DNA of 64,000 nt, taken from Anaerolinea thermolimosa (GTDB lineage: Bacteria; Chloroflexota; Anaerolineae; Anaerolineales; Anaerolineaceae). Within the stretch, counting starts at the first letter, position 1; every line of letters begins with the position of its first letter. The notes under the pieces are model-generated. The model saw only the letters and a list, made by a program, of their open reading frames with translations. It had not been told where the DNA came from and ran no database searches. The position numbers and the translations under genes are program-made. The DNA lies in contig NZ_DF967966.1 of NCBI RefSeq assembly GCF_001050195.2, positions 333,411 through 397,410 of the forward strand, read 5' to 3'. Of the stretch, positions 7,338 through 58,068 are shown piece after piece.

Positions 7338-7390
7338 GGGAACCAATGGATGGGCATTGGAAACCTGTTCATCTGAATCAAGGAGGTGGT

Positions 7391-11892: not shown

Positions 11893-12040
11893 TGGGCTGG
11901 GGTGTCTATTTTGAAAGCCGCGATTTTTCTCGCCCGTTGCCGGCGGCTGGCCTCACGTTTCGGGTGCAGCGCCTGACATGGAGTGAAGAGGGCGGTCCGC
12001 AGCTGGGAGAGGTGCAGGCGGTTGGTGATCTATCGGCGCT

Positions 12041-12821
12041 GGAGTCGCTGGTGGGACGGCTGCGCTGCCCGGTGACCGTGCTCGACGATTACGGCTCACC
12101 TGCCTGGTGGGGCTATGTGCACGCGGTGCAGATCTTCCTGGATGGGGTGGTGTTTCGGGCCACGCTGGAAGGGATGGCAAACCGGGTGGCGGTGCGCTGG
12201 GCCGATGAAAACCCACAAATGGAGGAGACCGGGCAGGCTTATCAGCACCAGACGGCCTGGCTGGATGATTTACCCTCTCAGCGGGCTTTCGGAGTGAAGG
12301 AGATGATTTTCTCTCTGGGTGAGGCCAGCCAGGCCGAGGCTGAGGCCGCCTGCTACACGCACCTGATGACCCGGCGGCTTCCGCAGGTGCAGGCCCTGCC
12401 CGGAGAACGCGTGGGGCGGCCCTGCGCGGTGCTCGATTTACGGGGCTGGTTTGATACGCTGCGCTGGAGATTCTGGAGCGAGCCGCGCGGGTACACCGGT
12501 AATATTCAATCTGGCGGGCGAGAAGCCAGTTTTGGCCACAGCCTGGCTGTACAGCGGGTGGCCCAGTCTTTTTCGTCGGGCCTGGCAGGAGGGTGGGAGC
12601 TTTCTGAAGTGTGGGTAAAGCTCTGGAAGGTGGGCGCTCCGTCAGATCAGGTGGTGGTTTCTCTGTGCGCTGACCAGAACGGCCTGCCCGGAACAGTCCT
12701 TGCCAGCGTGAGCCTTTCTACCGGGGAGATCGCCTCTGAGCCAGGGTGGGTGAAGGTTTTCTTCCCCGAAGCGCTGATGCTCACCGGCGGAACGATGTAC
12801 TGGGTGGTACTGGCCCGCAGT
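12041..12821 (+). repeat. tandem duplication, copy 1 (781 bp)
   Basis: Begins GGAGTCGCTG and ends CCCGCAGT. It appears identical to copy 2 at every position compared, including the translated segments. Both break points share the five bases TGGAG (12040-12044 and 13602-13606), consistent with slippage or microhomology-mediated duplication. Confidence 0.9.
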
Positions 12822-13602
12822 GGAGTCGCTGGTGGGACGGCTGCGCTGCCCGGTGACCGTGCTCGACGATTACGGCTCACCTGCCTGGTGGGGCTATGTG
12901 CACGCGGTGCAGATCTTCCTGGATGGGGTGGTGTTTCGGGCCACGCTGGAAGGGATGGCAAACCGGGTGGCGGTGCGCTGGGCCGATGAAAACCCACAAA
13001 TGGAGGAGACCGGGCAGGCTTATCAGCACCAGACGGCCTGGCTGGATGATTTACCCTCTCAGCGGGCTTTCGGAGTGAAGGAGATGATTTTCTCTCTGGG
13101 TGAGGCCAGCCAGGCCGAGGCTGAGGCCGCCTGCTACACGCACCTGATGACCCGGCGGCTTCCGCAGGTGCAGGCCCTGCCCGGAGAACGCGTGGGGCGG
13201 CCCTGCGCGGTGCTCGATTTACGGGGCTGGTTTGATACGCTGCGCTGGAGATTCTGGAGCGAGCCGCGCGGGTACACCGGTAATATTCAATCTGGCGGGC
13301 GAGAAGCCAGTTTTGGCCACAGCCTGGCTGTACAGCGGGTGGCCCAGTCTTTTTCGTCGGGCCTGGCAGGAGGGTGGGAGCTTTCTGAAGTGTGGGTAAA
13401 GCTCTGGAAGGTGGGCGCTCCGTCAGATCAGGTGGTGGTTTCTCTGTGCGCTGACCAGAACGGCCTGCCCGGAACAGTCCTTGCCAGCGTGAGCCTTTCT
13501 ACCGGGGAGATCGCCTCTGAGCCAGGGTGGGTGAAGGTTTTCTTCCCCGAAGCGCTGATGCTCACCGGCGGAACGATGTACTGGGTGGTACTGGCCCGCA
13601 GT
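12822..13602 (+). repeat. tandem duplication, copy 2 (781 bp)
   Basis: Exact second copy placed head-to-tail with no bases between copies. The downstream original sequence resumes with GGAGGAATATC at 13603. Copy identity implies a very recent event or an assembly error. Confidence 0.9.
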
Positions 13603-34680: not shown

Positions 34681-34859
34681 CCTGTCTAACCCCCATATAT
34701 TCATATTATAACAGAAAACAAACAACTTGGGATCTACGTATCGATCCAGGGAATGCTATTTGTACCGCAGAAAAGAAAAAGCGCCCGGACGGACAGGCTC
34801 CCCGTCATCAGTCCCTTGCAGGTAAGTGGCGCCTGGTTTTCGACACTCGAGCGCAACGC

Positions 34860-37800
34860 ATTTCAGTATCCACTAACGGATCGAGGGGGGTGCAACACAG
34901 CCAGCCCAAGCCCGCGATGGACTGCAACGTTAATTTCAGTATCCACTAACGGATCGAGGGGGGTGCAACAGAAACGCGGAGATCTCACGCTTTACTTGAT
35001 TACAGTATTTCAGTATCCACTAACGGATCGAGGGGGGTGCAACTCGGTGTCCCTCACCGCCCCAGACGGTGAGGTGTCCGATTTCAGTATCCACTAACGG
35101 ATCGAGGGGGGTGCAACCCGAAAGCAACGGCAATCCGGTTACATCCTTCCTAAATTTCAGTATCCACTAACGGATCGAGGGGGGTGCAACCAGTCAACCT
35201 ACAAATACACGCTCCAGATTGATTTCCATTTCAGTATCCACTAACGGATCGAGGGGGGTGCAACGCCGCTGCCAAAATCCGCCTGATGGACATTCAAGCA
35301 TTTCAGTATCCACTAACGGATCGAGGGGGGTGCAACGAACAGAATTGACCGCGCAGCTGTACAGACGCTGCTATTTCAGTATCCACTAACGGATCGAGGG
35401 GGGTGCAACTGAAAAGATAGCCCCCTACTCTCTTGTCGAGACCGGATTTCAGTATCCACTAACGGATCGAGGGGGGTGCAACCATCCGCCAGCCCCGTCA
35501 CTGATGCGCGTCAAGCGCATTTCAGTATCCACTAACGGATCGAGGGGGGTGCAACGAGATATATACGCTGACGCATACAAAATCGCGTAGAGATTTCAGT
35601 ATCCACTAACGGATCGAGGGGGGTGCAACCGATATTCGGGACGTAGCTCGTCGAGATTACGTCGCATTTCAGTATCCACTAACGGATCGAGGGGGGTGCA
35701 ACTTACAAAAAAAGGATTATCTCTGAAGCTGAATACAATTTCAGTATCCACTAACGGATCGAGGGGGGTGCAACCGATCTATCTGACATACCGGATGCCA
35801 ACCCGAAAATCATTTCAGTATCCACTAACGGATCGAGGGGGGTGCAACAAGATCCGGCGCGAGCGCAGTCCAACCAAGACTTGAATTTCAGTATCCACTA
35901 ACGGATCGAGGGGGGTGCAACCTTCTAAGATGCGCCCCTCGCGCAATGCCTGCATAAATTTCAGTATCCACTAACGGATCGAGGGGGGTGCAACAAAAAT
36001 ACATTGAAAACAAACACAGACATTACAATGATTTCAGTATCCACTAACGGATCGAGGGGGGTGCAACCGTCACGCGCCTTGGGTGGTGAGGGACGAAAAA
36101 ACTATTTCAGTATCCACTAACGGATCGAGGGGGGTGCAACAACCTAGACGCCTGGGATGTGGTAGTAGACGAAGTGATTTCAGTATCCACTAACGGATCG
36201 AGGGGGGTGCAACTGTGGGTGAGGTCTGCTGACAATCCAGACAATCTACGATTTCAGTATCCACTAACGGATCGAGGGGGGTGCAACAAGAACCCTCGCG
36301 CATCCTTGCCCTGGGAAAGCAACTATTTCAGTATCCACTAACGGATCGAGGGGGGTGCAACACGTCCACCCCGATGACATATTCCCCGCCTTCAGCATTT
36401 CAGTATCCACTAACGGATCGAGGGGGGTGCAACTTGCTCTCGAACGAGAGCAACTCGCTGATCAAAATATTTCAGTATCCACTAACGGATCGAGGGGGGT
36501 GCAACTACGACAAGCTCTGCATGAGATAAGCCGTGTGCCAATTTCAGTATCCACTAACGGATCGAGGGGGGTGCAACACCGAGTAAGTCCAGCAGCGACA
36601 TGTAGATAGAATTATTTCAGTATCCACTAACGGATCGAGGGGGGTGCAACGTGCGCATCAATTACACGCGAATGATTGTTGATAAATTTCAGTATCCACT
36701 AACGGATCGAGGGGGGTGCAACGTCCGGTTCAACAACACCGCCCCACTACCGAAAAAATTTCAGTATCCACTAACGGATCGAGGGGGGTGCAACGCTCTG
36801 AGCCCGTTTGCGCGATTTCGGGGCTGGGGAATTTCAGTATCCACTAACGGATCGAGGGGGGTGCAACCACTGTTCTCATCGCCATCCTTGATCTTGTCTA
36901 TGAATTTCAGTATCCACTAACGGATCGAGGGGGGTGCAACAAATGGACCGCTCCCGGCGGTCAGGCACCCTTCGCCAAATTTCAGTATCCACTAACGGAT
37001 CGAGGGGGGTGCAACGGACTGGTCATCAAGTCGATGGAAAACGGGCTGGTGGTATTTCAGTATCCACTAACGGATCGAGGGGGGTGCAACGGAGATGGAA
37101 GCGTTTGCCATATACGACATATGCGAAATTTCAGTATCCACTAACGGATCGAGGGGGGTGCAACTGCGGCATCGATCCAGAGTCGCGCAAATATAATTAT
37201 AATTTCAGTATCCACTAACGGATCGAGGGGGGTGCAACAATTGGTTTTGGGACATCTACCAGCGGGGCGTTCGATTTCAGTATCCACTAACGGATCGAGG
37301 GGGGTGCAACGTATCCCCGACCAATCCAGCCCAGGGCCGTGTTTCATTTCAGTATCCACTAACGGATCGAGGGGGGTGCAACCCTTCACCACCCCGTACA
37401 CCTCCCGAAGCCGCGCTTCATTTCAGTATCCACTAACGGATCGAGGGGGGTGCAACGTCGGTGAACGAATGGAGCGTTTACGCTGAATCGGTATTTCAGT
37501 ATCCACTAACGGATCGAGGGGGGTGCAACCCATGCACCCCCGGTGCGTACCTTAACCTGCATCCATTTCAGTATCCACTAACGGATCGAGGGGGGTGCAA
37601 CAACCAAAACACCAGCCAGAGGCTCTTGCTGAATAAATTTCAGTATCCACTAACGGATCGAGGGGGGTGCAACCGGAGGTGATCACCTCCGGTCTCGCGG
37701 ACGTCAACGATTTCAGTATCCACTAACGGATCGAGGGGGGTGCAACTGCTGGAGCGTCTTTCCGAGAGGATACGTTATGTCAATTTCAGTATCCACTAAC

Positions 37801-40800
37801 GGATCGAGGGGGGTGCAACTCGGGAAACTGAATGAAGCAAAAGCCTTATCATACTATTTCAGTATCCACTAACGGATCGAGGGGGGTGCAACGACTTTCA
37901 ACCTGCCGACCGGTTTCAGTTTGACGGGTATTTCAGTATCCACTAACGGATCGAGGGGGGTGCAACCAAGCGGATTGGACGCCGACCGCGACTCCGGCGC
38001 TTTATTTCAGTATCCACTAACGGATCGAGGGGGGTGCAACTTGATTTTAAGCTGTCTAGTATTCAACCCTGGGTTACATTTCAGTATCCACTAACGGATC
38101 GAGGGGGGTGCAACTTGACAGGCAAACGCGCGCGATATAATCAAAAAAACATTTCAGTATCCACTAACGGATCGAGGGGGGTGCAACAAAGACGGTGGAT
38201 AATTCCACCATATCACACAGACGTTATTTCAGTATCCACTAACGGATCGAGGGGGGTGCAACTAACCACCATAGGTGGGGGGAGGTATGCTAAAAATCAT
38301 TTCAGTATCCACTAACGGATCGAGGGGGGTGCAACCTGGAAACCGGCGATGCCTGGGTAGCCTGCGATGATATTTCAGTATCCACTAACGGATCGAGGGG
38401 GGTGCAACGCATGGAATGGGTGATAATTATGTTAATGTTACAAGATTTCAGTATCCACTAACGGATCGAGGGGGGTGCAACTGCAAGGGGGCGAGTAATG
38501 TGGAAACCATTCTCAAAATTTCAGTATCCACTAACGGATCGAGGGGGGTGCAACGACAGGGGCTCAGACATTGAACATTGAAGACCTGAATTTCAGTATC
38601 CACTAACGGATCGAGGGGGGTGCAACTTGACCAGCTCGTAAGCGTATTCCTTGCCCGTCGTATTTCAGTATCCACTAACGGATCGAGGGGGGTGCAACCT
38701 GAAGCGGTGCATGTTGAGGATGGAAATCGGGTATATTTCAGTATCCACTAACGGATCGAGGGGGGTGCAACATTGTATGGACTGTAAAAAAGTCCTTAAG
38801 TACGTAGAATTTCAGTATCCACTAACGGATCGAGGGGGGTGCAACGTCACCTCTCCGGATGGTAGCCACCGGAATCTGGATTTCAGTATCCACTAACGGA
38901 TCGAGGGGGGTGCAACCTTGAAGTCGGGCAGCATAGTGTCGAACAGGCGTACATTTCAGTATCCACTAACGGATCGAGGGGGGTGCAACATCCTTGTGGG
39001 CGAGGTGAACTACCACCCGCTCAAGCATTTCAGTATCCACTAACGGATCGAGGGGGGTGCAACCCCCCGCGCCGCCGCTTCCCACGGATCCTCTAGTAGA
39101 TTTCAGTATCCACTAACGGATCGAGGGGGGTGCAACCCGGCCGGTTCGACTGTCCAGGATGGGCCCAGCCGCATTTCAGTATCCACTAACGGATCGAGGG
39201 GGGTGCAACAGAAAATGCTAGTCACTGGCAAGTTACAAAGAGAGAGATTTCAGTATCCACTAACGGATCGAGGGGGGTGCAACGGGTGTACACCCCGGGG
39301 GGAGTTTTATTTGTTTTTTCATTTCAGTATCCACTAACGGATCGAGGGGGGTGCAACAAATCCGCTCCTGCGCCTGATGGTGCAGGAATGTCCCATTTCA
39401 GTATCCACTAACGGATCGAGGGGGGTGCAACCGCGAACTGGCGCGCAAACTTATCGCCTTGTATCGCATTTCAGTATCCACTAACGGATCGAGGGGGGTG
39501 CAACAAAGCGCAAAGCGGCGCGAGCGCTGCTGCGGTTGTATATTTCAGTATCCACTAACGGATCGAGGGGGGTGCAACCATTCTGGAAACGCTTGAATGA
39601 ATATTCAAAAAGCATTTCAGTATCCACTAACGGATCGAGGGGGGTGCAACTTCCAATCAATGACCAGCCCCGCCGGTGGCTTACCATTTCAGTATCCACT
39701 AACGGATCGAGGGGGGTGCAACGAAAAGACGGTCAGCCGGTTACATACACTGCAAATGAATTTCAGTATCCACTAACGGATCGAGGGGGGTGCAACAGCC
39801 CGTTCCAATTGTCTTCGGTCAGCCCGTCCATATTTCAGTATCCACTAACGGATCGAGGGGGGTGCAACCTGGCAGTCGTATCCATGCATGCGCTGGCCAA
39901 ACAATTTCAGTATCCACTAACGGATCGAGGGGGGTGCAACCTATAGTCGCAAGACTTGATCATTCGAATCGTCTGAATTTCAGTATCCACTAACGGATCG
40001 AGGGGGGTGCAACAACGCCTGCCGCGGGCAACGCGATCTGAATGTGATCCATTTCAGTATCCACTAACGGATCGAGGGGGGTGCAACCCTGCCGCGGGCA
40101 GAAGGACATCAACATCATTCGCATTTCAGTATCCACTAACGGATCGAGGGGGGTGCAACAGCGGGAGCGGAGCGCGGACGCACAATTACGCCTGGGATTT
40201 CAGTATCCACTAACGGATCGAGGGGGGTGCAACCCGTGCTCAGTTCCCAGATGCCGCCGTGACGTTGCATTTCAGTATCCACTAACGGATCGAGGGGGGT
40301 GCAACTGCTGGATGTTGGTGATGCCTGGATAGCCTGTGAGGAATTTCAGTATCCACTAACGGATCGAGGGGGGTGCAACTTCGCTGACCGGAGCCGCGAT
40401 CGTTGCGGTTTTGTATTTCAGTATCCACTAACGGATCGAGGGGGGTGCAACTTGAGCGCGGTGCATGAGAAGCTGGATCAGATTCGATTTCAGTATCCAC
40501 TAACGGATCGAGGGGGGTGCAACTGACCCGTACGAGGACATGCCTGACAGAGAACGCGAAATTTCAGTATCCACTAACGGATCGAGGGGGGTGCAACACC
40601 GGCGTTATGGAAGAAGACTTGATCGTCCGATAATATTTCAGTATCCACTAACGGATCGAGGGGGGTGCAACGTAATTTGTAGCAAGTGCGGAAAATTTGA
40701 AGAGATATTTCAGTATCCACTAACGGATCGAGGGGGGTGCAACGTTGACCAGCTCGTAAGCGTATTCCTTGCCCGTCGTATTTCAGTATCCACTAACGGA

Positions 40801-40816
40801 TCGAGGGGGGTGCAAC
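34860..40816 (-). CRISPR. CRISPR array, 82 repeats and 81 spacers
   Basis: The repeat is 37 bases long, starting ATTTCAGTAT and ending GGGGTGCAAC on the + strand. It appears invariant across 82 copies, with repeat starts from 34860 to 40780 spaced 71-75 bases, giving spacers of about 34-38 bases. On the minus strand the repeat begins GTTGCACC and ends ACTGAAAT, matching the usual 8-base Cas6-derived 5' handle (xxTGAAAx). Transcription is therefore leftward, from a leader at 40817-40975 beside cas4, and the newest spacer is at 40744-40779. No degenerate terminal repeat is present at 34860. Confidence 0.98.
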
Positions 40817-40919
40817 CGCGTATTTTCGCACCTCAAAACCTATTATACATCCATTTTCGGGGCTCTGCGGGCATTTTAAGGCCATTCTGCAGGGGTACTG
40901 CTCGGGGGGGGCGGAGCAG
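40817..40919 (-). promoter_or_regulatory. CRISPR leader with -10 element
   Basis: On the minus strand a perfect TATAAT (complement of 40842-40847) lies 25 bases before the first repeat, so pre-crRNA should start about 18 bases upstream of it. No good -35 is seen. A second hairpin (CTGCTC with GAGCAG, near 40898-40919) flanks the promoter. Adjacent-repeat position and AT-rich parts fit a leader. Confidence 0.6.
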
Positions 40920-40966
40920 TTTTCGCAAACCGTTTTTTGCTTAAAAACCGGGGAGATTTGCGAAAA
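40920..40966. other. nested inverted repeat between cas4 and the leader
   Basis: TTTTCGCAAA (40920-40929) pairs perfectly with TTTGCGAAAA (40957-40966), and inside it GTTTTT pairs with AAAAAC. It starts ten bases past the cas4 stop. It could end the cas transcript or bind a factor needed for spacer integration. Confidence 0.5.
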
Positions 40967-40975
40967 GAGTCTCGT

Positions 40976-41587
40976 TTACAAACGGTCGTTGCAAAACCGG
41001 CGGAATTCGCAGGAGACGCACCGCTGAAGCTGGGTGGTAGGCGGCGGCATGCGTTCACTTTCCAGTACGCCCCGCATCTGATCGAGGATTTCTTGCACCC
41101 TCTCACGCAAAGCCGGGGTGAAGGGAACTTCTACGGCACGCCGCAGGGGAATTTCGACCAGAAAACCACGGCGGGAGGGTTTACCGCTCATTTCTTCCAG
41201 GAGCATCCCGTACGCCACGAGCTGAAGTTTAAAGTGCTCCCCCGCGCGGTGAGAAAACTTAAAATCAACCGGGATCACCTCGCCGGGTGCTGGCTCATCC
41301 ACCCAGATGACAAGGTCCACCTTACCGCGCAGTCCCCATTTTGAGGAACGCACGGGCACGTCCAGCTCGCGTCTTCCCTCCGTCAGGCGGTAGGCGCGCA
41401 GAGAGCGGCGGATTTCGCGCCGGGCTTCTTCTTCTCCCACTTCCTTCCCCACATCCATGAGGTAGGTGCGGGGTTGAACATCGGGCAGGCAGACCAGGTA
41501 ATAAAGAATGCGCGGACAGTAAGCCCACTGCTTCAGATCGGTCACCCGGAATGGGAACTCCATAATTTCTTCGTAAGGGTCCAGCAT
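40976..41587 (-). CDS. cas4: CRISPR adaptation nuclease Cas4
   Basis: 203 residues, RecB-type nuclease that trims and orients prespacers with Cas1-Cas2. The iron-sulfur cysteines are visible: YCPRIL at ~21-26 and the C-terminal cluster CVSCEFRRFC. The nuclease core has RGKVDLVIW and the VIPVDFKFS strand where DxK-type residues sit, with the HFKLQLVAYGMLLEE QxxxY-like helix. It is the last gene of the operon, nearest the leader. AAGGAAG lies about ten bases before ATG; a second ATG eight codons on is possible. Confidence 0.93.
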   Translation of the reverse strand: MLDPYEEIMEFPFRVTDLKQWAYCPRILYYLVCLPDVQPRTYLMDVGKEVGEEEARREIRRSLRAYRLTEGRRELDVPVRSSKWGLRGKVDLVIWVDEPAPGEVIPVDFKFSHRAGEHFKLQLVAYGMLLEEMSGKPSRRGFLVEIPLRRAVEVPFTPALRERVQEILDQMRGVLESERMPPPTTQLQRCVSCEFRRFCNDRL

Positions 41588-49649: not shown

Positions 49650-50033
49650 TCATGCCCTGCGGCGGCGGGCGGCTTCGTGCTGGGATTGCAGGTTGAGCAC
49701 CTCGGCCACCTCAAAGCGCGGCGGGATGGCGCCGTTCACCGCGCGTAAACGCACACACGCCGGGAAGTAGCCCATCCTGCCGTGCAGTTCAGCGATGAGC
49801 ATTGTGGCGCTGAAGTTGAGCGAGGGCGGGTTGATCAACAGGGGGGCATGCTCCCATTCTTCCTGAGTCAGACCAGCCCGGTCTACCATGGCGCTCACCT
49901 GCGGGCCGAGGGGCTGGCCTGGCTCAATCTGGCTGTGCACCTCGATGGTGCGTTCAATGGGCGCACCGAGCAAGTTTTGCAGTTGTTCTATCTGGTCGGC
50001 AGAGAGGGGGTGCGAGAAGTTGACCAGAATCAT
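49650..50033 (-). CDS. Csx15-like CRISPR-associated protein
   Basis: 127 residues. MILVNFSHPLSADQIEQLQ, the central LLINPPSLNFSATMLIAELH and the following GRMGYFPACVRLR match my recall of the Csx15 family, a small Rossmann-like protein of type III loci that has been proposed to handle cyclic oligoadenylate (ring nuclease or sponge). That activity is family-level proposal, not shown here. The start overlaps the stop of the CARF nuclease (ATGA), so the two are made together, as expected for an effector and its off-switch. Confidence 0.65.
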   Translation of the reverse strand: MILVNFSHPLSADQIEQLQNLLGAPIERTIEVHSQIEPGQPLGPQVSAMVDRAGLTQEEWEHAPLLINPPSLNFSATMLIAELHGRMGYFPACVRLRAVNGAIPPRFEVAEVLNLQSQHEAARRRRA

Positions 50034-50950
50034 CGCTTTGGCTCCTGATGGGTGGGCAGAATTTCCGATACGGTTTGAAACAAACGGTTTTGGTCCTTCT
50101 GGCTGAGGGGTTTGCCGGGATAGTACTCCTTCAATTCGATGACCCTCACCCGCAGGGCGGTTGCCAGCGCTTTGTAACGCTCCTCCATCGAGGCCTGGGT
50201 CACCATGAAGCGCGCGGCATAGGTGCCCAGGTACTCGCGGGCCGCCATGGTGGTGAGCTGATCTATGGCGTGCTTATCGCTCCCCGTACCGCCGGTCTTG
50301 ATTTCGAAGACGCCCACATGATTACCGCAGCGCACCAGCAGGTCGATTTCTACCTGATCTTTCACCCCGTCGGGCACCACACTCTGTTTGATCTCATCTA
50401 CATGCGGCTTCAGGGCTTTCGCAACGGCATCTTCCAGCGGCTTTCCGTCAGTTTCCTTGGTATTGTAATGATATCCATCCAGGTGGGCTTTGAGGTAATC
50501 ATCCAGGGTGATCAGTGCGGGCAGTTCGCGGGGGTAGCCCTCTTCGAGGTGCAGTTCACGTTGTTCGTCGAAACGATAGCGGTAGAGTGTGCTCTTTTGA
50601 TCGCGCCCGCGCGGCCCTTCGGTCTGGTAATAGACCACCGGGTAGCGGCGCTGGCGCGCCAGTTCGAACGCCGCCAGCATCATCGGTTTGGTGCCGCCGG
50701 TCACGTTGACCACCACTTCATCTTCAGGCTCACCCATCTCGCGGTAAAGCGCTTCCAGGATGCGGGAAATATGGTAGCCGTCACCCACCGAAAACAGGCG
50801 GGTGTTGCCCATCAATCCGGCGAGGCGTCTGGCACTCTTCTTCGAGGCTTCCAGCGAGGTGTGGGCGATGAAGGTCTGCGCCGGGTTGTGGTAGCGCGCC
50901 GGCAGCAGGTTGGGGATGGGCTGTTCACCAGCAAGGCAGAGAAGAATCAT
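50030..50950 (-). CDS. Card1/Can2-like CARF nuclease (DUF1887)
   Basis: 306 residues. The N-terminal CARF domain has LCLAGEQPIPNLLPARY and the cyclic-oligoadenylate-binding VNVTGGTKPMML at 81-92. The C-terminal PD-(D/E)xK nuclease has EDAVAKAL (~173-180), VEIDLLV (Asp203) and VFEIKTG (Glu216, Lys218), all conserved. Relatives are switched on by cyclic tetra-adenylate and cut single-stranded or nicked DNA and RNA. It should be the nuclease arm of the adjacent III-B system. ATG 50950 has GAGGTG upstream; longer starts overlap cmr6. Confidence 0.88.
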   Translation of the reverse strand: MILLCLAGEQPIPNLLPARYHNPAQTFIAHTSLEASKKSARRLAGLMGNTRLFSVGDGYHISRILEALYREMGEPEDEVVVNVTGGTKPMMLAAFELARQRRYPVVYYQTEGPRGRDQKSTLYRYRFDEQRELHLEEGYPRELPALITLDDYLKAHLDGYHYNTKETDGKPLEDAVAKALKPHVDEIKQSVVPDGVKDQVEIDLLVRCGNHVGVFEIKTGGTGSDKHAIDQLTTMAAREYLGTYAARFMVTQASMEERYKALATALRVRVIELKEYYPGKPLSQKDQNRLFQTVSEILPTHQEPKR

Positions 50951-50957
50951 GGGCACC

Positions 50958-51899
50958 TCATTGGAAATAACCATAACCCGCGCTGGTCTTGGCACCGGCG
51001 CCCAGGTTGCGCAGGCCATTCTTCAACCAGGTACAGGCCTGTTCCAGCAAATCCGCCCGGGAAGCGCCGCGCCGCCATGCCATGGCGAAAGCAAATTCCT
51101 TATCTTTGGGCACCGCCAGGAAGGTGATGGGGTTGGGGTTATGCCAGTCGCCGGGGGAGTCTTTGCCCTGGTAATAGGGAGCGTAATGCGGGTTCATGAT
51201 ATCGATATCCAGCGGGAACGCTGAGGTGGGGATGGCGTCAAAGAACACCGCCCCGCCCGCCTGCTCCAGCGTGCCAAATACCAGACGCATAGTCTTTGCC
51301 AGTTCCTTTGCCTCGGGCGAGGGCTTAAATCGCTCAAAGGCTTTGTCAAACTCTTTATCTTCTCTGGAAAGCGTCTGGTCAAGGTCATTCAACTTCCCTT
51401 CGCTAAGGGACAGGAGTGAAGCCAGTTCAAACAGCGCCCAGGTGCGGGCAATGCCCTTGACACTGCTGGCAGGCAGGTAAGGAAAGCCGTAGCGGTGAAA
51501 GCCAAAGCCAATTTCCAGCGCGGTTTTACGTCCCAGCCCGGGGATGAAGCGCCAGTCGGTCTTGAGGGTGAAGGTTTGAGCGCGGCAGGCTTGCGTCAGG
51601 GCCTGCCAGCGGGCAAAAGCTGCTTTGAGCGCGGCCGGGTCGGGGGCGCTCCGGGCTTTCTTCAGCGCCTGTTCACGCCAGGCCGACTTTTCTCTATCTC
51701 CGGCTTTACTCATGTCCGGCGCAAAGCGTTCGAAGACCAGCCCGGGGTTGCTGGCCGGAACTTTTGTGAAGACATCCACCACCTCTTTCGGCAACGGATA
51801 TACCGGTGCTGTCGAGGAAGCAGGGGGGCCGCCTTTACCCTGCTGCCCGCCGGAGCGGTTGGGGGGAGTGCCATGTTTTTGAGGAATATTCGGGCTCAT
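50958..51899 (-). CDS. cmr6: Cmr6 subunit of type III-B complex
   Basis: 313 residues. A disordered, Pro/Gln/Gly-rich start, then a RAMP core with FIPGLGRKTALEIGFGFHRY, the PYLPASSVKGIARTW motif and the glycine loop LGAGAKTSAGYGYF at the end. Cmr6 closes the complex at the crRNA 3' side. GGAG within the end of cmr5 precedes the ATG. It lies four bases from cmr5 and eight bases ahead of the CARF nuclease start. Confidence 0.92.
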   Translation of the reverse strand: MSPNIPQKHGTPPNRSGGQQGKGGPPASSTAPVYPLPKEVVDVFTKVPASNPGLVFERFAPDMSKAGDREKSAWREQALKKARSAPDPAALKAAFARWQALTQACRAQTFTLKTDWRFIPGLGRKTALEIGFGFHRYGFPYLPASSVKGIARTWALFELASLLSLSEGKLNDLDQTLSREDKEFDKAFERFKPSPEAKELAKTMRLVFGTLEQAGGAVFFDAIPTSAFPLDIDIMNPHYAPYYQGKDSPGDWHNPNPITFLAVPKDKEFAFAMAWRRGASRADLLEQACTWLKNGLRNLGAGAKTSAGYGYFQ

Positions 51900-51902
51900 G
51901 GC

Positions 51903-52292
51903 TTACTCCTTTGTAGAATCAGGTAGTTCAGCCTCGGCAAAGCGTTTGTACCAGTTGAGGTACGCCAGGGCTTCAGCCGTTGCCTGGCGGTAGTGCAAAC
52001 TGCTGGCCGTGGTGGCAATCCATTCCAGCAGGTCGCGGTTCTCGTCGATGTGCAACTGCTTTTTCAACCAGCCCGAAAGATCGTTGTATAAAGTCAGATG
52101 ATGCACTTCTTTTTTGGCTTTCCAGAAGGCTAAAGTTTGCCCCAGGCCGTTGCTCTGAATGCTGGCAGGGGCATTGCGGGCAAGGCTCTTCAAGTCCTTA
52201 ACTCCCTTCTGCCTGGCTCTGGATATCGCATCATAAGCATGACTGGCGCGTTTCTGCTCCAGCGAGCGTTGTTCAGTTACTGTCTCAGCCAT
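51903..52292 (-). CDS. cmr5: Cmr5 small helical subunit
   Basis: 129 residues, all helical. RSLEQKRASHAYDAISRARQ, ARNAPASIQSNGLGQTLAFW and LHYRQATAEALAYLNWYKRF are the Cmr5 pattern. It lines the inner face of the complex along target RNA. ATG 52292 has GGAGG eight bases upstream, and the cmr4 stop lies just before it. Confidence 0.93.
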   Translation of the reverse strand: MAETVTEQRSLEQKRASHAYDAISRARQKGVKDLKSLARNAPASIQSNGLGQTLAFWKAKKEVHHLTLYNDLSGWLKKQLHIDENRDLLEWIATTASSLHYRQATAEALAYLNWYKRFAEAELPDSTKE

Positions 52293-52296
52293 GGTA

Positions 52297-53202
52297 TCAC
52301 CCTCCATACACTTTCACGGCTACCCAACCCTGACCGGTGGTTTCGTCGCCACCTAACTGCACGTGCCCATCCTGCAGGAAGTCGAATTCCTTCAGCACTT
52401 CGTCTGCAGGCATCTGGTCTTTGCCGTTGCGCACATCCATGGCCATCAGCGGGGCGTAAAGCAGACTGTCGGCAGGCAGGCTTTCCGCCGTCCACAGTGC
52501 CCCTTCGGCAACCGTTTTCTTCTCGGGGTCAATGCGGATGTGCGTTTGAACCTCGGTGGCGTAGAGGCAGAAATCGCGGAAGGCGTCTTCGTGAAGGATG
52601 CACAGGCGCGCGGGCAAAGTCTCGCGCCAGTACTGGAAAGCTGTCCCCTGGGGCAGGGCGTTTGCCGCCAGCCACTGGGCAATGGCATCCACTTCACTTT
52701 TCGGCCGGGCGTCGAAACTGAATTCTTCCAGCACCACTTTGCCCTCAGGTGCCACCTGAGATTTGCTTCCCACCCAGGCGGCGGTGCCTTCCGGCCCGCC
52801 CTGGGGCACATTCCAGCTAACCGACTGGCCGGCCAGTTCAGCAGAACGGCGGAAGGACTCCAGTGCATGCAGGCTGGTTACCCAGGCAAAGACCCCTGCC
52901 AGCGAACGTACCGGGAAGAGCAGAATACGTGCGTCGCCAGCGGAGATCGCCCCCGCCCAGTTTTCGCCGGTACTGCCGGCCTTACCGAAGATGGCCTCTA
53001 CCAGCGCATCATCATCATTTAATTGATGCGCCTGGCGAAACTCCGCCCGCAGGGCGCCTTTGAGGCTTGAAGCCTGCACCATGGGGTATTGCGTTACCCG
53101 TTCGCGCTGAATGGGAAGGTCTACATTGGCGCTGGCGCGCCCGGCACCCACGTGCAGAGGGGTTTCGACATAGAAGAAAAGCAAACGTCTGGCTTTAAAC
53201 AT
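52297..53202 (-). CDS. cmr4: Cmr4 backbone subunit (target RNA cutter)
   Basis: 301 residues. RAMP signature FYVETPLHVGAGRASANVDL, then PMVQASSLKGALRAEFR, and a C-terminal HVQLGGDETTGQGWV glycine loop. Cmr4 copies cut bound RNA at 6-base steps using an Asp in the thumb-side loop; an Asp lies in ASANVDLPIQRE at the expected place. GGAGG lies eight bases before ATG 53202. Confidence 0.94.
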   Translation of the reverse strand: MFKARRLLFFYVETPLHVGAGRASANVDLPIQRERVTQYPMVQASSLKGALRAEFRQAHQLNDDDALVEAIFGKAGSTGENWAGAISAGDARILLFPVRSLAGVFAWVTSLHALESFRRSAELAGQSVSWNVPQGGPEGTAAWVGSKSQVAPEGKVVLEEFSFDARPKSEVDAIAQWLAANALPQGTAFQYWRETLPARLCILHEDAFRDFCLYATEVQTHIRIDPEKKTVAEGALWTAESLPADSLLYAPLMAMDVRNGKDQMPADEVLKEFDFLQDGHVQLGGDETTGQGWVAVKVYGG

Positions 53203-53230
53203 GATCTTTTCCTCCCAAAAACGAAAGTTC

Positions 53231-54310
53231 CTATCCTTGTTCCGGTTTCCATGAAGCAATCATCACCTGCCCGAAGCCCAGCGCGGCACCGTCTTCGGTG
53301 ATGGCCTGCTGAGATAACTGCACCCCTCCCGTATGGGAGAAGTAATACACACTCCCTGCAGGGACGAAGCGCCGTGCAGGTTTCTGCTTCCGATTGAGCA
53401 GGTCGTACCCGCCCAGGGTTTGATAACGCGAAAGTGCCACGGCTTCCAACCTTACCTCGCCGGTGAAGAAAGCCTGCCACGAAGCCGGTTTCCAGCCCTG
53501 CGAGAAGTACGCCGGGGTGGCGAAATACACTTTGAAGAAGCGTGGCAGTTCACCGGTGTATCCCCATGACAATGAAGAGAGTTCTCCATCCTTCAGGGTG
53601 GTGTAACGCAGAGCGCGGCCTTCGCCACCGGCACGCATGATGCCCTGCGGGGGGAAATCCGCATATCCCTCTGTGATTTCCACCACCAGGCCGGCATCCT
53701 CAACCAGGCGGATATATTCCACCTCGTAGAGCATCCCCTCAACGGTGGATCGGCGTTGGGCATCGAGCTGAATGCCCAACCGCCGCTCAGTGACGAAAAG
53801 CTCAGCGGCTTTGACCGGCGTAACCAGCGCGCCCTGCTCCAGATAAGATTTCAACGTCTTTTCACTGAGAAACGCCCCTGGAGCGTTTTTGGTGATGATC
53901 CTGTTGGGTTTCTCCAGCAGGCAGGGCAGGGTTTCTTCCTTCCACACGCACCCGCCCGGGTTTGGCACCACTTTCATGGGCACCACCTGGCTGGCTTCAG
54001 CATCGGCCGGGTAGGCGTCTGCCGGGGTGGCAAAGTAGCGTATGACCCTGCCGTTCTCGCGGCGGGCAAGGAAAGGCCCGCGCAAACGCAACCCTTTGGA
54101 ATTGGCCGAATCACCGACCAGCTGGCGAATGGCTTCAGGATCATCCAGAGGGATCTTCCTGTGAGTCAGATAATGTGAGCGAATTACACCCTGGATCACC
54201 GAGGGAGGTGGCGGAAAGAGGCTGCGCGCCTCATGATCACTCTCAGCATTGAAGGGACGGCCGTCGCGAAACAGCAGGACATCTTCGGCTTCCATGAACA
54301 GGATACTCAT
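53231..54310 (-). CDS. cmr3: Cmr3 subunit
   Basis: 359 residues. LFMEAEDVLLFRDGRPFNAE and SLFPPPPSVIQGVIRSHYL are the Cmr3 signatures. The RAMP glycine region is near the end (GAALGFGQVMIA). It holds the crRNA 5' handle beside Cas10. The start overlaps the cas10 stop by four bases (ATGA). Confidence 0.95.
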   Translation of the reverse strand: MSILFMEAEDVLLFRDGRPFNAESDHEARSLFPPPPSVIQGVIRSHYLTHRKIPLDDPEAIRQLVGDSANSKGLRLRGPFLARRENGRVIRYFATPADAYPADAEASQVVPMKVVPNPGGCVWKEETLPCLLEKPNRIITKNAPGAFLSEKTLKSYLEQGALVTPVKAAELFVTERRLGIQLDAQRRSTVEGMLYEVEYIRLVEDAGLVVEITEGYADFPPQGIMRAGGEGRALRYTTLKDGELSSLSWGYTGELPRFFKVYFATPAYFSQGWKPASWQAFFTGEVRLEAVALSRYQTLGGYDLLNRKQKPARRFVPAGSVYYFSHTGGVQLSQQAITEDGAALGFGQVMIASWKPEQG

Positions 54311-56055
54311 TCTGCACCTCCAGAAGCAAGGAACCGGGCGATGATCAACCAGCGTGCAATTTCACCCATTGCGGATACTCCAGTTTTCTCCTTAATGGCT
54401 TTGTGCCATTCAGTCAACGTACCCAGCAATGCGTCTTTGCGATCCTTTGAGACCTTCTCCCCCGTGTGGCGATTGAATAGATACTGCAATATGCTTGTCT
54501 TGACTTCCTGTTTCAGGTCCTGAAGCATGGCAGTTTCGCGCGCCAGCAAATAAGGGAAGACCGCGGCAACTTCATCGTTTTGGAAAGCCTGCACCCACTC
54601 TGCTACCTGTGCCACATGCTCCCAGGGGCTGAGAGCAGAGAGCGCCTCACCGCCGCGTTTGGCAAGCGTGACGCACACCATTCCCTTGTTACCCAGGTCA
54701 TCCTTTTTGCCCAATTTAGCGCTTTTTTCAGCTTCGTGCAGCAGGCTTAGCGCCCGGGCAAGCGGGGTGAGATGGTGTGCAATTACCACCCCGGCTGATG
54801 CGGTTGCCAGAATACCCAAATCCTTTCCCACCGTGTTCTGATATTCCTCCGCCAGCTTTCGGGCAAGTTCCAGGCCTTTTTCACGGGAAGCCAGGAAGAG
54901 CACGTCATCCCCGCCGTTGTAGATGAGGAAACCACCCGCCTCTGGTTTCACGACCTTGCGCACCTGATTGGAAAACCTGGCGATGTTCTCGCTGAAACAG
55001 CGGTGATTTGCCTCTGCCTTCTCCTTATTCTCTAAAAGATGATCGATTTTCGCACCCACACCGTCGCCGTCGAACTGAATCAGCATGTAGTAGGGCGAGG
55101 GGGATTTTCTGGTTTTTTGGATCAGGCTCTTGAGTGTGCCGCGCACCTGCTGAAGTGCGGCCTCATCCACCTTCTCAACGTTATAGCTGTCCTTCATGCG
55201 CTGGCGGGTGAGAGTCTCTTCGAAGAAGAGGTCTCCGTCGTAGGGAAAAACTGCATCCTGCTTGCGGGCCCTGTAAAGCGGCAGTTTCTCCAGGGCCTGG
55301 CGGTAGCGGCTCAACTCATCTTGGGCTTTTTTCTGCGCTTCCAGATAAAAATCCCACGCCGCCACGGTGCTGGTAGAGGGGAATTCACGATCTCCGACCT
55401 CCCAGAAACGCTTGACCAGGGCGATGCTGTCGAGCAGTTCCCGTCCTTCGGGGCGCACCTGGGAAGATAAGATGTGCGGCTTCCTGGACATGGCTTCCCA
55501 GTACTTGCGGGCGGTCGCATATTTCTGGGTGCGCAGGGCGGTGCGCGCGCCGCTCAAGCTGTCCTTTTCCCCTTCTTCTTCGCTCTGGTCGAAGAGACGA
55601 CTGCGCTTGGCGCGCTCCAGCATATCGCGGGCGGCCTCATAAGCCTGAGCATAGTTCTCAGTTTCCGGCGCCACCGCCCAGAAAATTTGCCAGGGCGGTG
55701 CCTCCACAACCTGGCGCTTCCAGATGCGCTTCCAAAGGTCATCCTCTTCGAGGTAGGCTTCGGCGCGGGCTTTTTCAGCAATCTCCTGCCATTCCTTCAG
55801 TAAGGCTTGCCGCGCCTTTTGGGCAATTTCCGGTGCCTGCTCTTGGGACACACGGGCGACCAGCACGTTAGGGGTGTCGTTCTCCTGCAGTTGGGCGGGG
55901 TAAATCAGTTCTCCCGCGGTTTGAATCGCCTTTCCCGCTGCCTGAGCCAGCCGGGAGAGGATGGCGCTCCCGTTGAACAGGTCTTCACTGCGCCGCGCCT
56001 CGGCAATGAAGGACTGCACCGGCGAAAAGGTGAAAATTAACACGGCTTTGGTCAT
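54307..56055 (-). CDS. cas10: Cas10 (Cmr2), GGDD palm intact, no HD domain
   Basis: 582 residues, short for Cas10. The palm begins at once (FTFSPVQSFIAEARRSEDLF), so the N-terminal HD nuclease is absent. The cyclase keeps DGDG (near 327) and GGDD in YNGGDDVLFLAS (near 380). It should therefore make cyclic oligoadenylate on target RNA binding but not cut DNA itself. ATG 56055 overlaps the cmr1 stop. The frame is open 51 codons further upstream but that stretch lies in cmr1. Confidence 0.93.
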   Translation of the reverse strand: MTKAVLIFTFSPVQSFIAEARRSEDLFNGSAILSRLAQAAGKAIQTAGELIYPAQLQENDTPNVLVARVSQEQAPEIAQKARQALLKEWQEIAEKARAEAYLEEDDLWKRIWKRQVVEAPPWQIFWAVAPETENYAQAYEAARDMLERAKRSRLFDQSEEEGEKDSLSGARTALRTQKYATARKYWEAMSRKPHILSSQVRPEGRELLDSIALVKRFWEVGDREFPSTSTVAAWDFYLEAQKKAQDELSRYRQALEKLPLYRARKQDAVFPYDGDLFFEETLTRQRMKDSYNVEKVDEAALQQVRGTLKSLIQKTRKSPSPYYMLIQFDGDGVGAKIDHLLENKEKAEANHRCFSENIARFSNQVRKVVKPEAGGFLIYNGGDDVLFLASREKGLELARKLAEEYQNTVGKDLGILATASAGVVIAHHLTPLARALSLLHEAEKSAKLGKKDDLGNKGMVCVTLAKRGGEALSALSPWEHVAQVAEWVQAFQNDEVAAVFPYLLARETAMLQDLKQEVKTSILQYLFNRHTGEKVSKDRKDALLGTLTEWHKAIKEKTGVSAMGEIARWLIIARFLASGGAE

Positions 56056-56981
56056 TGGTTCCACCCCTTTATTTCGATCTTCTGCCCGCCGAAAGACTGA
56101 AGCACATTCAACACACTTTGATAATTGTGCCTGCCAGAGATCAGCCGGGAGGGTAAGACGGTGAGCAGCAGATGGTAGGCCTGAGAAGCATAGAAGATAT
56201 TCACCCACAGGGGCGACCCCTGGCGGGGAGAGATACCACCCAGATAATCGGCTTTGGGCATATTACGCATGACCATCGTCAGCGCTTCCTGAGATGTCCT
56301 GGCCCAATCCTTAACAAAGCGGATTTCTGCACCCTGTGCAGCACAGGGAAAAGCGGTTGGAATGGTTGGTAAAGAAACTACAGGTTGTTGTAATTGTTCT
56401 GCTAATTTTTTCCCCATACCAACTGCCGAACGCAAAATTTTATCGATACGTTTTGGGAACATATCCGGATTATCCGGGAACACAGGAATTAACGAAGGGT
56501 CAGTGCTCTTGATCACTTGCAAACTCCCTGCGCCTCTCCTGGAACGCAGTCCCAAACCTCCCAACCAGACGGCAAGGTTGAACGCCATACAGGCATTCAC
56601 CCACACCAGAAGGTCTACCGGGCGCGTGGTGCTCAAGATCACCTCAAATTGCTGTTTGGGTTTGAAAGCGCGGCGACTTCCTGAAGGCGTTTTATGGGGC
56701 AGAATAGGGTGTGGATCGGATAGAAGCGGCTTCTGCTGTACCTGAATGGCAATGGGCGAGCCGTACTCCGCATCCCCAAACACTTCCCGCTCCAGTTTCC
56801 TCAGCCCGGGTAAATTTTGATCCCCAATCACCCCGCCGAGAGCGGCGCGGAACCAGTAGCGCATGGCGCCGCGGAATGCCGGGGGGCGCAGTTCAGGCTC
56901 GCCTCGCGGATCGACCCCTCCCAGAAAGAGGGGGGTCACCGTTTCCAGTTGCACGCTCACCTGTTGTTTCCAGTTGAACAT
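56052..56981 (-). CDS. cmr1: Cmr1 subunit
   Basis: 309 residues, somewhat short for the family. LETVTPLFLGGVDPRGEPEL, PPAFRGAMRYWFRAALGG and LRSRRGAGSLQV are Cmr1 signatures. It binds the 3' end of crRNA and target. GGAGAG precedes ATG 56981. The 95-base gap upstream, after the CARF-HTH gene, may carry a promoter, but none is obvious. Confidence 0.9.
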   Translation of the reverse strand: MFNWKQQVSVQLETVTPLFLGGVDPRGEPELRPPAFRGAMRYWFRAALGGVIGDQNLPGLRKLEREVFGDAEYGSPIAIQVQQKPLLSDPHPILPHKTPSGSRRAFKPKQQFEVILSTTRPVDLLVWVNACMAFNLAVWLGGLGLRSRRGAGSLQVIKSTDPSLIPVFPDNPDMFPKRIDKILRSAVGMGKKLAEQLQQPVVSLPTIPTAFPCAAQGAEIRFVKDWARTSQEALTMVMRNMPKADYLGGISPRQGSPLWVNIFYASQAYHLLLTVLPSRLISGRHNYQSVLNVLQSFGGQKIEIKGWNQ

Positions 56982-57076
56982 AGTCTCTCCTTTCCTTCTT
57001 GGCGCGGTTTTGAAGATACCTTCTTTTTTTTCGCCTGTCGTCACAGACGGTTCCCATTCTCGATAGGAACTTCTTC

Positions 57077-57934
57077 CTATTCCGGTTCCTGCCCGAACAG
57101 GGAGGCAAACTCGGCAATAAAGGCAGCCCGGCTGGCACCCCCTGCGACCCCGTGCGTGCCCTTCCAATCTTCGAAGGCCCGGTAAATCCTGGTCAGCTGA
57201 TTGGCAATCGTATGTTCACTTTTCCCCAGCCGGCGGGCGATGGCGGCATTGTCCAGGCCTTCACGCACCAGCAGTTCCGCCACCCCGCGCAGCGCAGGCG
57301 ACAGGTGGTGCTCCCAGAACTCCCGCCGCCGCCGTATCACCTCGTGCAGGGTGAACTCCTGCTGACGGCGCAGGGCTTCCCAGGGATCATCCACCTCGGC
57401 GAGTAAGACCTGCACGGTTGCGGCATCGCTCCAGCGCACCACCGGTACTGCCACCACCTGGTAACGGTCTGGCGGGGTAGCGTGCATACGCCGCTCCGTG
57501 CCCGCCCAGGGCACCTCGGAGATCATGTGCCAGGCACGATCCTGTTCTCCAAAGAGCAATTGAGCCGCCACCATGGCATACACCGCCATGGTTTTGCGTC
57601 CACCGGTCAGGCTTAAATGCACTTTTTGCCCCATCTGGCGCGCCCGGCGGATGGCCCGGTATATGGACTGGAGGAATGCCCAGGTATCTTTTTCTGAGGC
57701 CAGGTCTTCGATAGGGCCTTCGGTGCCGCGAATGACTTCGTGACGGAAACGAATGGACGGGTAATAGGCCGGAAATTCCTGTTTCAGTTTTTGCAGAGCG
57801 GCTTCTACCACGCTGGCTGAGGTGTGCAAAACGAGAACTTCATCAATGGCAAAGCCCTGTTGCAACAACCAGTCCAGCATCCATGTGACACCCTGCGGTT
57901 CGGTGCCCAATGTGGCAATCAATAATTCATTCAT
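57077..57934 (-). CDS. CARF (Csx14/NE0113-like) protein fused to a LuxR-type HTH
   Basis: 285 residues. The N-terminal CARF fold has LLIATLGTEPQGVTWMLDWL and the ligand-motif strand HLSLTGGRKTMAVYA (106-120), close to the Csx14/NE0113 family. Residues ~211-256 form a GerE/LuxR helix-turn-helix (LRGVAELLVREGLDNAAIAR, RLGKSEHTIANQLTRIYRAF). No nuclease domain is present. It heads the cmr operon, so it may turn cyclic oligoadenylate into transcriptional control. Nothing shows whether it activates or represses. An 8-bp palindrome GACCGGTC (57951-57958) sits just upstream. Confidence 0.8.
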   Translation of the reverse strand: MNELLIATLGTEPQGVTWMLDWLLQQGFAIDEVLVLHTSASVVEAALQKLKQEFPAYYPSIRFRHEVIRGTEGPIEDLASEKDTWAFLQSIYRAIRRARQMGQKVHLSLTGGRKTMAVYAMVAAQLLFGEQDRAWHMISEVPWAGTERRMHATPPDRYQVVAVPVVRWSDAATVQVLLAEVDDPWEALRRQQEFTLHEVIRRRREFWEHHLSPALRGVAELLVREGLDNAAIARRLGKSEHTIANQLTRIYRAFEDWKGTHGVAGGASRAAFIAEFASLFGQEPE

Positions 57935-58040
57935 ATAAAGGGCGCGATACGACCGGTCTTATTTTTTCCCAATCCTGTTGGTCGCATCCGTCTATGCTAA
58001 TTCTAATATGAGTTTTGAAAAACACTCCTGAAAAAGGGGT

Positions 58041-58068
58041 AAAAAAACCGGCTCCCGTGGGAGCCGGT
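58041..58068 (-). terminator. intrinsic terminator of the pst-phoU operon
   Basis: ACCGGCTCCC (58047-58056) pairs with GGGAGCCGGT (58059-58068) in a 10-bp stem with a 2-base loop, followed on the minus strand by a run of seven T. It lies ten bases past the phoU stop. Confidence 0.9.

Follow-up and report, generated by a model that had tools for sequence, protein, structure and literature searches.

A CARF protein with a LuxR-type helix-turn-helix beside a type III-B CRISPR operon of Anaerolinea thermolimosa: a putative cyclic-oligoadenylate-gated regulator and its candidate operator

A 285-residue protein encoded directly 5' of a type III-B CRISPR operon of Anaerolinea thermolimosa joins a CARF domain of the Csx14/NE0113 kind to a LuxR/NarL-type helix-turn-helix (HTH). 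Its gene, with an ATG start, occupies positions 57077 to 57934 (minus strand) of a stretch of 64,000 nucleotides (contig NZ_DF967966.1, positions 333,411 to 397,410; hereafter the window) and is followed on the same strand by cmr1-cas10-cmr3-cmr4-cmr5-cmr6-Card1-like-csx15. From sequence comparison and structural models, this regulator is probably a local transcription activator of the effector promoter that is gated by cyclic oligoadenylate; we infer both the ligand and the direction of control. Its likely target lies 3' of the gene (57013-57080), since relatives share a palindrome and a promoter between the regulator and the effector genes.

The gene is real and under purifying selection. 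No open frame exists on the plus strand at 57077-57934, and comparison with the closest relative gave dN/dS (ratio of nonsynonymous to synonymous substitution rates) of about 0.12 in the CARF domain and 0.08 in the HTH, at a dS of about 1.5. A scan of GTDB contigs, in which one of the two search patterns required E in motif I, found 85 relatives, of which 80 were kept. They come from Chloroflexota and about ten other phylum-level groups, many as metagenome bins, and some loci are pairs from one genome and so not all independent. Thirteen of the 80 loci (L036, L038, L039, L040, L050, L058, L066, L073, L078, L096, L103, L104 and L105) were truncated, frameshifted or misframed and were excluded from alignment A2, which holds 68 members; alignment A3 holds 65 of those 68. 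The fusion was also sought through its CARF domain in 301 Chloroflexota genomes. PF09623 matched in 49 of these and, among 30 loci fetched, 27 aligned through the HTH part and 3 did not, indicating that the NE0113-type CARF usually carries this HTH in this phylum.

The CARF domain comprises residues 1-165 (57440-57934, minus strand) and contains motif I, LGTEPQ (E12 corresponding to Ser11 of Sso2081), motif II, GGRK (R113, K114), within the longer LTGGRKTM motif, and D77. The Pfam profile PF09623 (Cas_NE0113) matched residues 12-193 above its cut-off of 23 bits (E 8.4e-38, 130.7 bits), and it matched all 68 members of A2. The NCBIfam profile Csx14 (TIGR03642) reached 88.5 bits in the window regulator, narrowly short of its cut-off of 90.35, and therefore we call the domain Csx14-type and not Csx14 proper; at E<=0.001 this profile matched 68 of 68 aligned members. 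The AlphaFold model of the full protein had pLDDT 93.4 and pTM 0.82, and the structure closest to its CARF domain was Sso2081 (7yhl; Z 19.3, root-mean-square deviation (rmsd) 1.8 over 146 residues).

The HTH (residues 209-285; 57080-57310, minus strand) follows a long linker helix (184-210). In the window regulator alone Pfam HTH_38 was just above its cut-off (E 1.5e-6, 28.2 bits, cut-off 27) and GerE below it (E 0.012, 15.7 bits, cut-off 23.5), whereas across A2 GerE matched 61 of 68 members at E<=0.01. A sequence profile of the C-terminal domain matched GerE (1fse, E 8.9e-9), FixJ (2.4e-8) and NarL (7.1e-8) in the PDB. Folded on its own (pLDDT 83.1) the domain was closest to EL222 (Z 10.9, rmsd 1.8, 72 residues), FixJ (9.8), NarL (9.7) and region 4 of the sigma factor SigD (9.6); Foldseek with this small domain alone gave no match at E<=0.001. 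In the model it is a four-helix LuxR/NarL-type HTH without strands, not a winged HTH, and the protein has no nuclease domain. Profiles, model and fold comparison thus bear out the original prediction, which had described a Csx14/NE0113-like CARF fused to a LuxR-type HTH, with no nuclease, at the head of a type III operon, and had proposed structure prediction of both domains and a homologue survey as checks.

Sso2081 contacts cA4 through D75, R105 and K106 and cuts it with the help of motif I, G9-T10-S11 (PMC10018336; this and the other papers are cited from excerpts), motif II having been assigned to cA4 binding and motif I to degradation (PMC12669630). The equivalents of the three contact residues are retained in A2: D77 and R113 in 68 of 68 members and K114 as K in 58 and R in 10. 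In place of the motif-I serine, 52 members have E, 13 have K and 3 have A, and none keeps S; the window regulator has GTE. Among the loci from the unbiased PF09623 search, Q fills this position in 23 and E in 4 of the 27 that bear the HTH, none of which has S, and two of the three without the HTH keep GTS (counted by eye). The helical lid of Sso2081 is absent from the window model, and the Crn1 profile NF040581 gave 40.8 bits, under its cut-off of 125. Since the contacts are kept and the serine is replaced, and since Card1 and Can2, which also lack GTS, are described as binding without cutting, the regulator is predicted to bind cyclic oligoadenylate and to cut it little or not at all. Two points weigh against this prediction: Ser11 of Sis0455 was reported not to be critical (PMC10018336), and the E demanded by one search pattern bears on the composition of A2. 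Card1 and Can2 are listed as cOA4-activated (table in PMC9704534) and the operon encodes a Card1/Can2-like effector, so cA4 is the form we would expect. On these sequence features a cyclic oligoadenylate is the likely ligand of the regulator.

The evidence for a target site came from the DNA around the regulator stop codon. Usable 3' regions were obtained from 66 of the 80 loci and, with the window and L002, made 68 regions, 66 of them non-redundant; these loci share ancestry, and all p values below are optimistic. Between -60 and +160 of the stop codon, the motif found in the 66 regions had a log-likelihood of 709, against 415-434 in five shuffles and 406 in the loci's own 5' flanks (n=61). 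A palindromic model scored 560 against 348-362, and 42 of the 66 regions exceeded the 99% null. A -10-like hexamer peaked exactly 30 nucleotides after the palindrome centre, where it averaged 3.33 of 6; all other offsets from 15 to 44 gave 1.17-2.29. In most relatives the centre lies near -42.5, ahead of a sigma70-like promoter. In the larger clade (clade II) the element has the form A(C/G)GGG-AAAA-CCCGC and is followed directly by a -35 hexamer ATGAC(A/G), 17 nucleotides and TANACT; the spacer is 17 in 18 of 20 strict sites and 16 in two. The element is found from about 40 nucleotides before to 110 after the stop codon. In the held-out half of the non-window clades (clade II), 15 of 21 loci were recognized at p<0.01, compared with 1 of 61 5' flank controls.

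The 5' side of the gene gave a different result. In 21 clade II flanks nothing rose above controls (136.6 against 126-135 for W16 and 151 against 132-142 for W20), and the region 57935-58020, where the original prediction would have placed footprinting, contains no conserved motif, the 5' flank scoring like the shuffles; the conserved promoter region is at the 3' end, 57013-57080. A GATRCGACC inverted repeat in the 5' flank of the window regulator was dropped as a candidate because L026-L028 lack it. Among the regulator genes of L026-L101, a coding end that runs into the operator has a recurrent C-terminal tail such as GENPHD dictated by it, a protein 'motif' that is really a DNA site.

Protein and site go together across genomes. 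Of 301 genomes belonging to the order, 33 carry the full clade II pattern (at most two mismatches), 40 the regulator and 21 both, against 4.4 expected (Fisher p 1.9e-13, uncorrected for kinship). Nineteen of the 36 pattern matches lie within about 330 bp 3' of a regulator, and the reversed pattern, used as a control, gave 9 matches; at zero mismatches, 7 of 10 matches among 61 relatives adjoin a regulator. The half-sites also follow the recognition helix: 24 of 30 regulators of the VE class have GGG-N4/5-CC and none has GGAA-N4-TTCC, while 5 of 7 of the AN class, which includes the window regulator, have GGAA-N4-TTCC and none has GGG. This comparison covers 39 of the 42 above-null sites (L002, L104 and L105 have no A2 row), and its classes were defined after the data had been seen, in clades that share ancestry. 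Taken as sequence patterns, these results make it very likely that the regulator binds DNA at the palindrome and speak for the transcription factor role that had been proposed.

In the window, the operator-like palindrome ATAGGAA-GAAG-TTCCTAT (57063-57080, minus strand) is a perfect 7+7 dyad in the gap between the regulator and cmr1; it overlaps the regulator stop codon and is centred at about -65.5 from the inferred transcription start, which would be at about 57006. It is followed on the same strand by TGGGAA (57051-57056), the left half of a second, degenerate site whose centre, on completion to 16 bp, would fall at about -42.5 (spaced by hand after the example of L054), and by the inferred cmr promoter, with -35 ACGACA (57036-57041) and, 17 nucleotides later, -10 TATCTT (57013-57018). 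The palindrome is kept in L026 (78% protein identity), with one spacer change, and in L027 (70%), with a matched pair of changes, so that it is perfect in all three despite a dS of about 1.5 or more; the loop is GAAG in the window and GAAA in the other two. Measured by hand, the centre of the first palindrome lies 30, 30, 30, 29, 30 and 30 nucleotides from the -35 in the window, L026, L027, L031, L071 and L054; in L054 a second perfect palindrome follows 23 bp from the first and occupies the clade II position. The architecture of the window clade is thus one of two sites, of which the window has only the left half of the second. A dyad test gave p 0.010 for the window and 1.3e-4 for the five closest loci combined.

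The operator evidence is weaker for the window's own clade than for clade II, and several results count against the proposed reading. Of 23 window-clade loci, the model trained on clade II recognized none at p<0.01 and four at p<0.05 (p 0.18 for the window), and the joint site and promoter scan missed the window, where the perfect palindrome lies 23 bp further upstream. The cmr promoter in the window is mediocre: it agrees with the consensus at 8 of 12 positions, below the threshold of 9 set in the consensus scan, which therefore did not list it. In the same clade no good site was found in L028, L029, L032, L035, L041, L043, L045, L047 and L094. The dyad test over 18 loci combined (p 7.6e-6) used hand-picked loci and includes L037, whose palindrome is unrelated, and in Caldanaerobacter and Pseudothermotoga there is no gap ahead of csx15. 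No operator was seen by eye in the gap before csm1 in L141, a plasmid homologue described below.

Some relatives appear to have further targets. With a joint site and promoter model, two distal sites scored 34.5 and 31.5, whereas shuffled loci (1,135 kb) gave none above 22 and real off-target sites reached at most 23.0. The distal site in L173 (G028) shares a type III locus with the regulator but is at the opposite end of it, some 10 kb away, and that in L174 (G007) is on another contig, away from the CRISPR locus. Each precedes the gene of a small protein (94 and 109 residues, respectively) by about 100-130 nucleotides, and neither protein matched a Pfam or PADLOC family above cut-off. The 94-residue protein (L173, 9177-9586, minus strand), behind a near-perfect operator and promoter, is encoded beyond csx15 and the cas-like gene that follows it and by eye is apparently membrane-anchored; the 109-residue protein (L174, 6090-6522), also behind a near-perfect operator and promoter, has two hydrophobic stretches by eye. 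In A. thermolimosa itself no distal target was found. The exact window palindrome is unique in the genome, its two-mismatch matches stand at control level (16 against 15), and within the window there was 1 match at up to three mismatches for 1.08 expected; the clade II pattern occurs in this genome only beside a second, broken copy of the regulator. The suggestion that the protein might control the whole island therefore finds no support in the distribution of its site.

If the regulator does bind the site and a cyclic oligoadenylate, activation is the reasonably probable outcome. LuxR and the class II activators of the CRP type have operators centred near -42.5. The centre found here is at this usual activator place, upstream of the core promoter and not over it, and in L054 the two perfect palindromes precede a poor -35 (by hand); both observations argue against a repressor, whether its apo-protein blocks the effector promoter until cyclic oligoadenylate releases it or its ligand-bound form exerts negative feedback. 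On the other hand, many clade II promoters seem strong in their own right (ATGACA or ATGACG at -35, a 17-nucleotide spacer and a -10 of 5/6 or near) and might need no activator, and in Sulfolobus Csa3b is reported to repress cas genes (PMC10013973, in excerpt). We consider repression possible but unlikely.

It is improbable that the protein is instead a ring nuclease of the Crn1/Csx14 kind which removes cyclic oligoadenylate and uses its HTH only as a dimeriser or auto-inhibitor, as proposed for Sso1393/Sis0811. Its CARF domain is nearest to Crn1, NCBI calls a relative just 'CRISPR-associated ring nuclease', the dispensability reported for Ser11 of Sis0455 would fit an enzyme, and no other ring nuclease or Csm6-CARF family was found in the A. 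thermolimosa genome, although the searches with PF22208, PF09652 and PF09620 were uninformative because their controls gave no match. Against this stand the absence of the motif-I serine from all A2 members and from the 27 HTH-bearing loci of the unbiased set, the missing lid, and the conserved operator and recognition-helix constraint, which an enzyme would leave unexplained. There is very little to recommend a real palindrome and promoter bound by another factor, or a dyad that acts as an RNA hairpin in the leader: a GAAG loop (window) or GAAA loop (L026, L027) would make a good small hairpin, yet the site co-occurs with the regulator, its class matches the recognition helix and its distance to the -10 is fixed, and the palindrome lies upstream of the inferred transcription start and so would not be transcribed from that promoter.

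In the mechanism that we propose for a cyclic-oligoadenylate-gated activator, the regulator would act as a homodimeric local transcription factor at the palindrome beside the effector promoter. On meeting target RNA, Cas10 would make cyclic oligoadenylate, probably cA4, which, bound across the CARF dimer, could bring both HTH domains into a new orientation by way of the linker helices. In this state the dimer would sit just upstream of the -35 (in the window at about -65.5 and -42.5) and activate the effector promoter, giving a positive feedback that would persist as long as the alarm molecule does. In some relatives the regulator may also drive distant genes for small membrane proteins.

In 46 of the 54 loci that offer at least 4 kb of downstream sequence, cas10 follows the regulator on its own strand at a distance of up to 6 kb; cmr1 (III-B) is present in 13 of the 46 and absent from 33. 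In the other eight the script found no cas10; such loci may sit on truncated contigs or signal in trans. By frame arithmetic the script probably erred at L036, reading the wrong frame where cas10 overlaps; L041, L043 and L050 show cas3, L088 has csx15 and cas1, and L055, L078 and L082 have no detected cas gene. A GGQPQ-motif branch of CARF-HTH proteins occurs in other Chloroflexota (L106-L135), several with cas10, cmr1 or a Card1-like gene within 1.5 kb. REC-LuxR response regulators appeared among the blast matches through the HTH part only, with 50, 55 and 42% identity over 33-44 residues (L020, L021 and L025). Four plasmid records matched, of which two, from Rhodothermus, cover 98%; the Rhodothermus marinus plasmid homologue (L141, 8974-9879) has motif I GEQPQ and an HTH and bears only the ring nuclease name in its annotation. 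No relative was found in the sets 'phages' and viral_contigs (69 pattern stretches in the latter), nor does viral_contigs contain the clade II operator in its exact form.

All genes of the operon in the window are on the minus strand. cmr1 (56052-56981) has its ATG at 56981 and a ribosome-binding-site-like sequence, AAGGAGAG, at 56985-56992. The frame of cas10/cmr2 (54307-56208) is the longest one, with the true start probably inside it; its GGDD palm motif is kept, which makes synthesis of the alarm molecule plausible. Profiles identified cmr3 (53231-54310), cmr4 (52297-53259), cmr5 (51903-52307) and cmr6 (50958-51899), and these are followed by the Card1/Can2-like CARF-PD-(D/E)xK effector (50030-51019; PADLOC CARF4--CARF_PDDEXK, E 5e-111) and csx15 (49650-50033; NF040560, E 5.2e-47). 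Upstream of the regulator, phoU ends in a hairpin (58047-58068). A CRISPR array with 82 repeat copies found (34858-41000) lies beside cas4, cas1 and a type I set located beyond the III-B operon, and two 300-nucleotide stretches (12040-12339 and 12821-13120) form direct repeats, 100% identical and 781 nucleotides apart. The second regulator copy of this genome, of clade II type (L136; G000:C1:215000-234999, 6679-7545), is on contig C1 and carries a single in-frame TAG that breaks it towards the end of its CARF domain. It has an operator and a promoter of intact appearance and precedes a second type III locus with an 814-residue Cas10-like gene.

Like Csa3, the regulator is a CRISPR-linked protein with a CARF sensor, a C-terminal HTH and a conserved promoter palindrome nearby. 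It differs in having a LuxR/NarL-type HTH and a Csx14/NE0113-type CARF where Csa3 has a winged HTH; the Csa3 profile TIGR01884 gave 19 bits (cut-off 60.2), and a full-length alignment to the Csa3 structure 6wxq had Z 14.4 but an rmsd of 7.6. The sites differ in place as well, those of Csa3a being at adaptation genes and leaders and the candidate sites of this family at the Cas10 effector promoter. Csa3a is a cA4 binder. The palindrome linked to Csa3, CAPPa, is TCCCN8GGGA, and DNA binding by Csa3a was reported to be non-specific and cA4-independent (PMC8699464). The Crn1 enzymes Sso2081 and Sis0455 share the CARF fold and the D75/R105/K106 equivalents, and Sso1393/Sis0811 the combination of CARF and HTH, whereas the regulator has the motif-I serine replaced, no helical lid and an HTH of LuxR and not winged type. 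With the LuxR/NarL/FixJ proteins, EL222 and VpsT among them, it shares the fold and sequence of the HTH, an N-terminal ligand or signal domain and, for its candidate operator, a place near -42.5, a position known for LuxR; its sensor is a CARF domain and not an AHL, REC or LOV domain. CalpL-CalpT-CalpS also gives a cyclic-oligoadenylate-driven transcriptional response (PMC11229360), there by freeing a sigma factor through proteolysis, while here sensor and DNA-binding domain are in one protein.

The combination itself is not new to the records. The regulator belongs to the Csx14/NE0113 family (PF09623, TIGR03642) and to PADLOC CARF3--CARF, whose model PDLC01851 matches residues 1-283 (E 4.8e-116); the founding NE0113 model has 209 positions and ends before the HTH, and another PADLOC model labels the type CARF+WYL C, a WYL domain that the fold here does not support. 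Direct regulation of transcription by Csa3 and NE0113 CARF proteins was predicted in 2014 (PMC4012209, in the excerpt seen). The literature search, which did not cover the CARF classification of Makarova 2020, returned no account of a CARF-LuxR protein or its operator. CARF-HTH regulators were thus already known in Csa3, and the family was already in profile libraries; what we believe to be new is the operator logic. Two surveys may have left such proteins aside: one of ring nucleases placed Csx14 in Crn1 with a 250-residue limit that would exclude these proteins of about 290 residues (PMC12409355), and one of effectors set transcription factors aside (PMC11229360), as far as the excerpts go.

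Most studied outputs of type III systems are enzymes, and even for Csa3 specific DNA binding that depends on cA4 could not be demonstrated (PMC8699464). The regulator family would provide a compact example in which operator, promoter and ligand candidate can be named, and the genes behind the two distal sites are candidates for new effectors. In its widest form, which from sequence we put forward only tentatively, a single CARF-LuxR protein acting as a switch at a class II operator would let the Cas10 alarm drive its own effector promoter, as a positive-feedback amplifier of immunity, in bacteria of about eleven phylum-level groups and, in some species, would add small membrane proteins with unlinked or distal genes as CRISPR-induced effectors.
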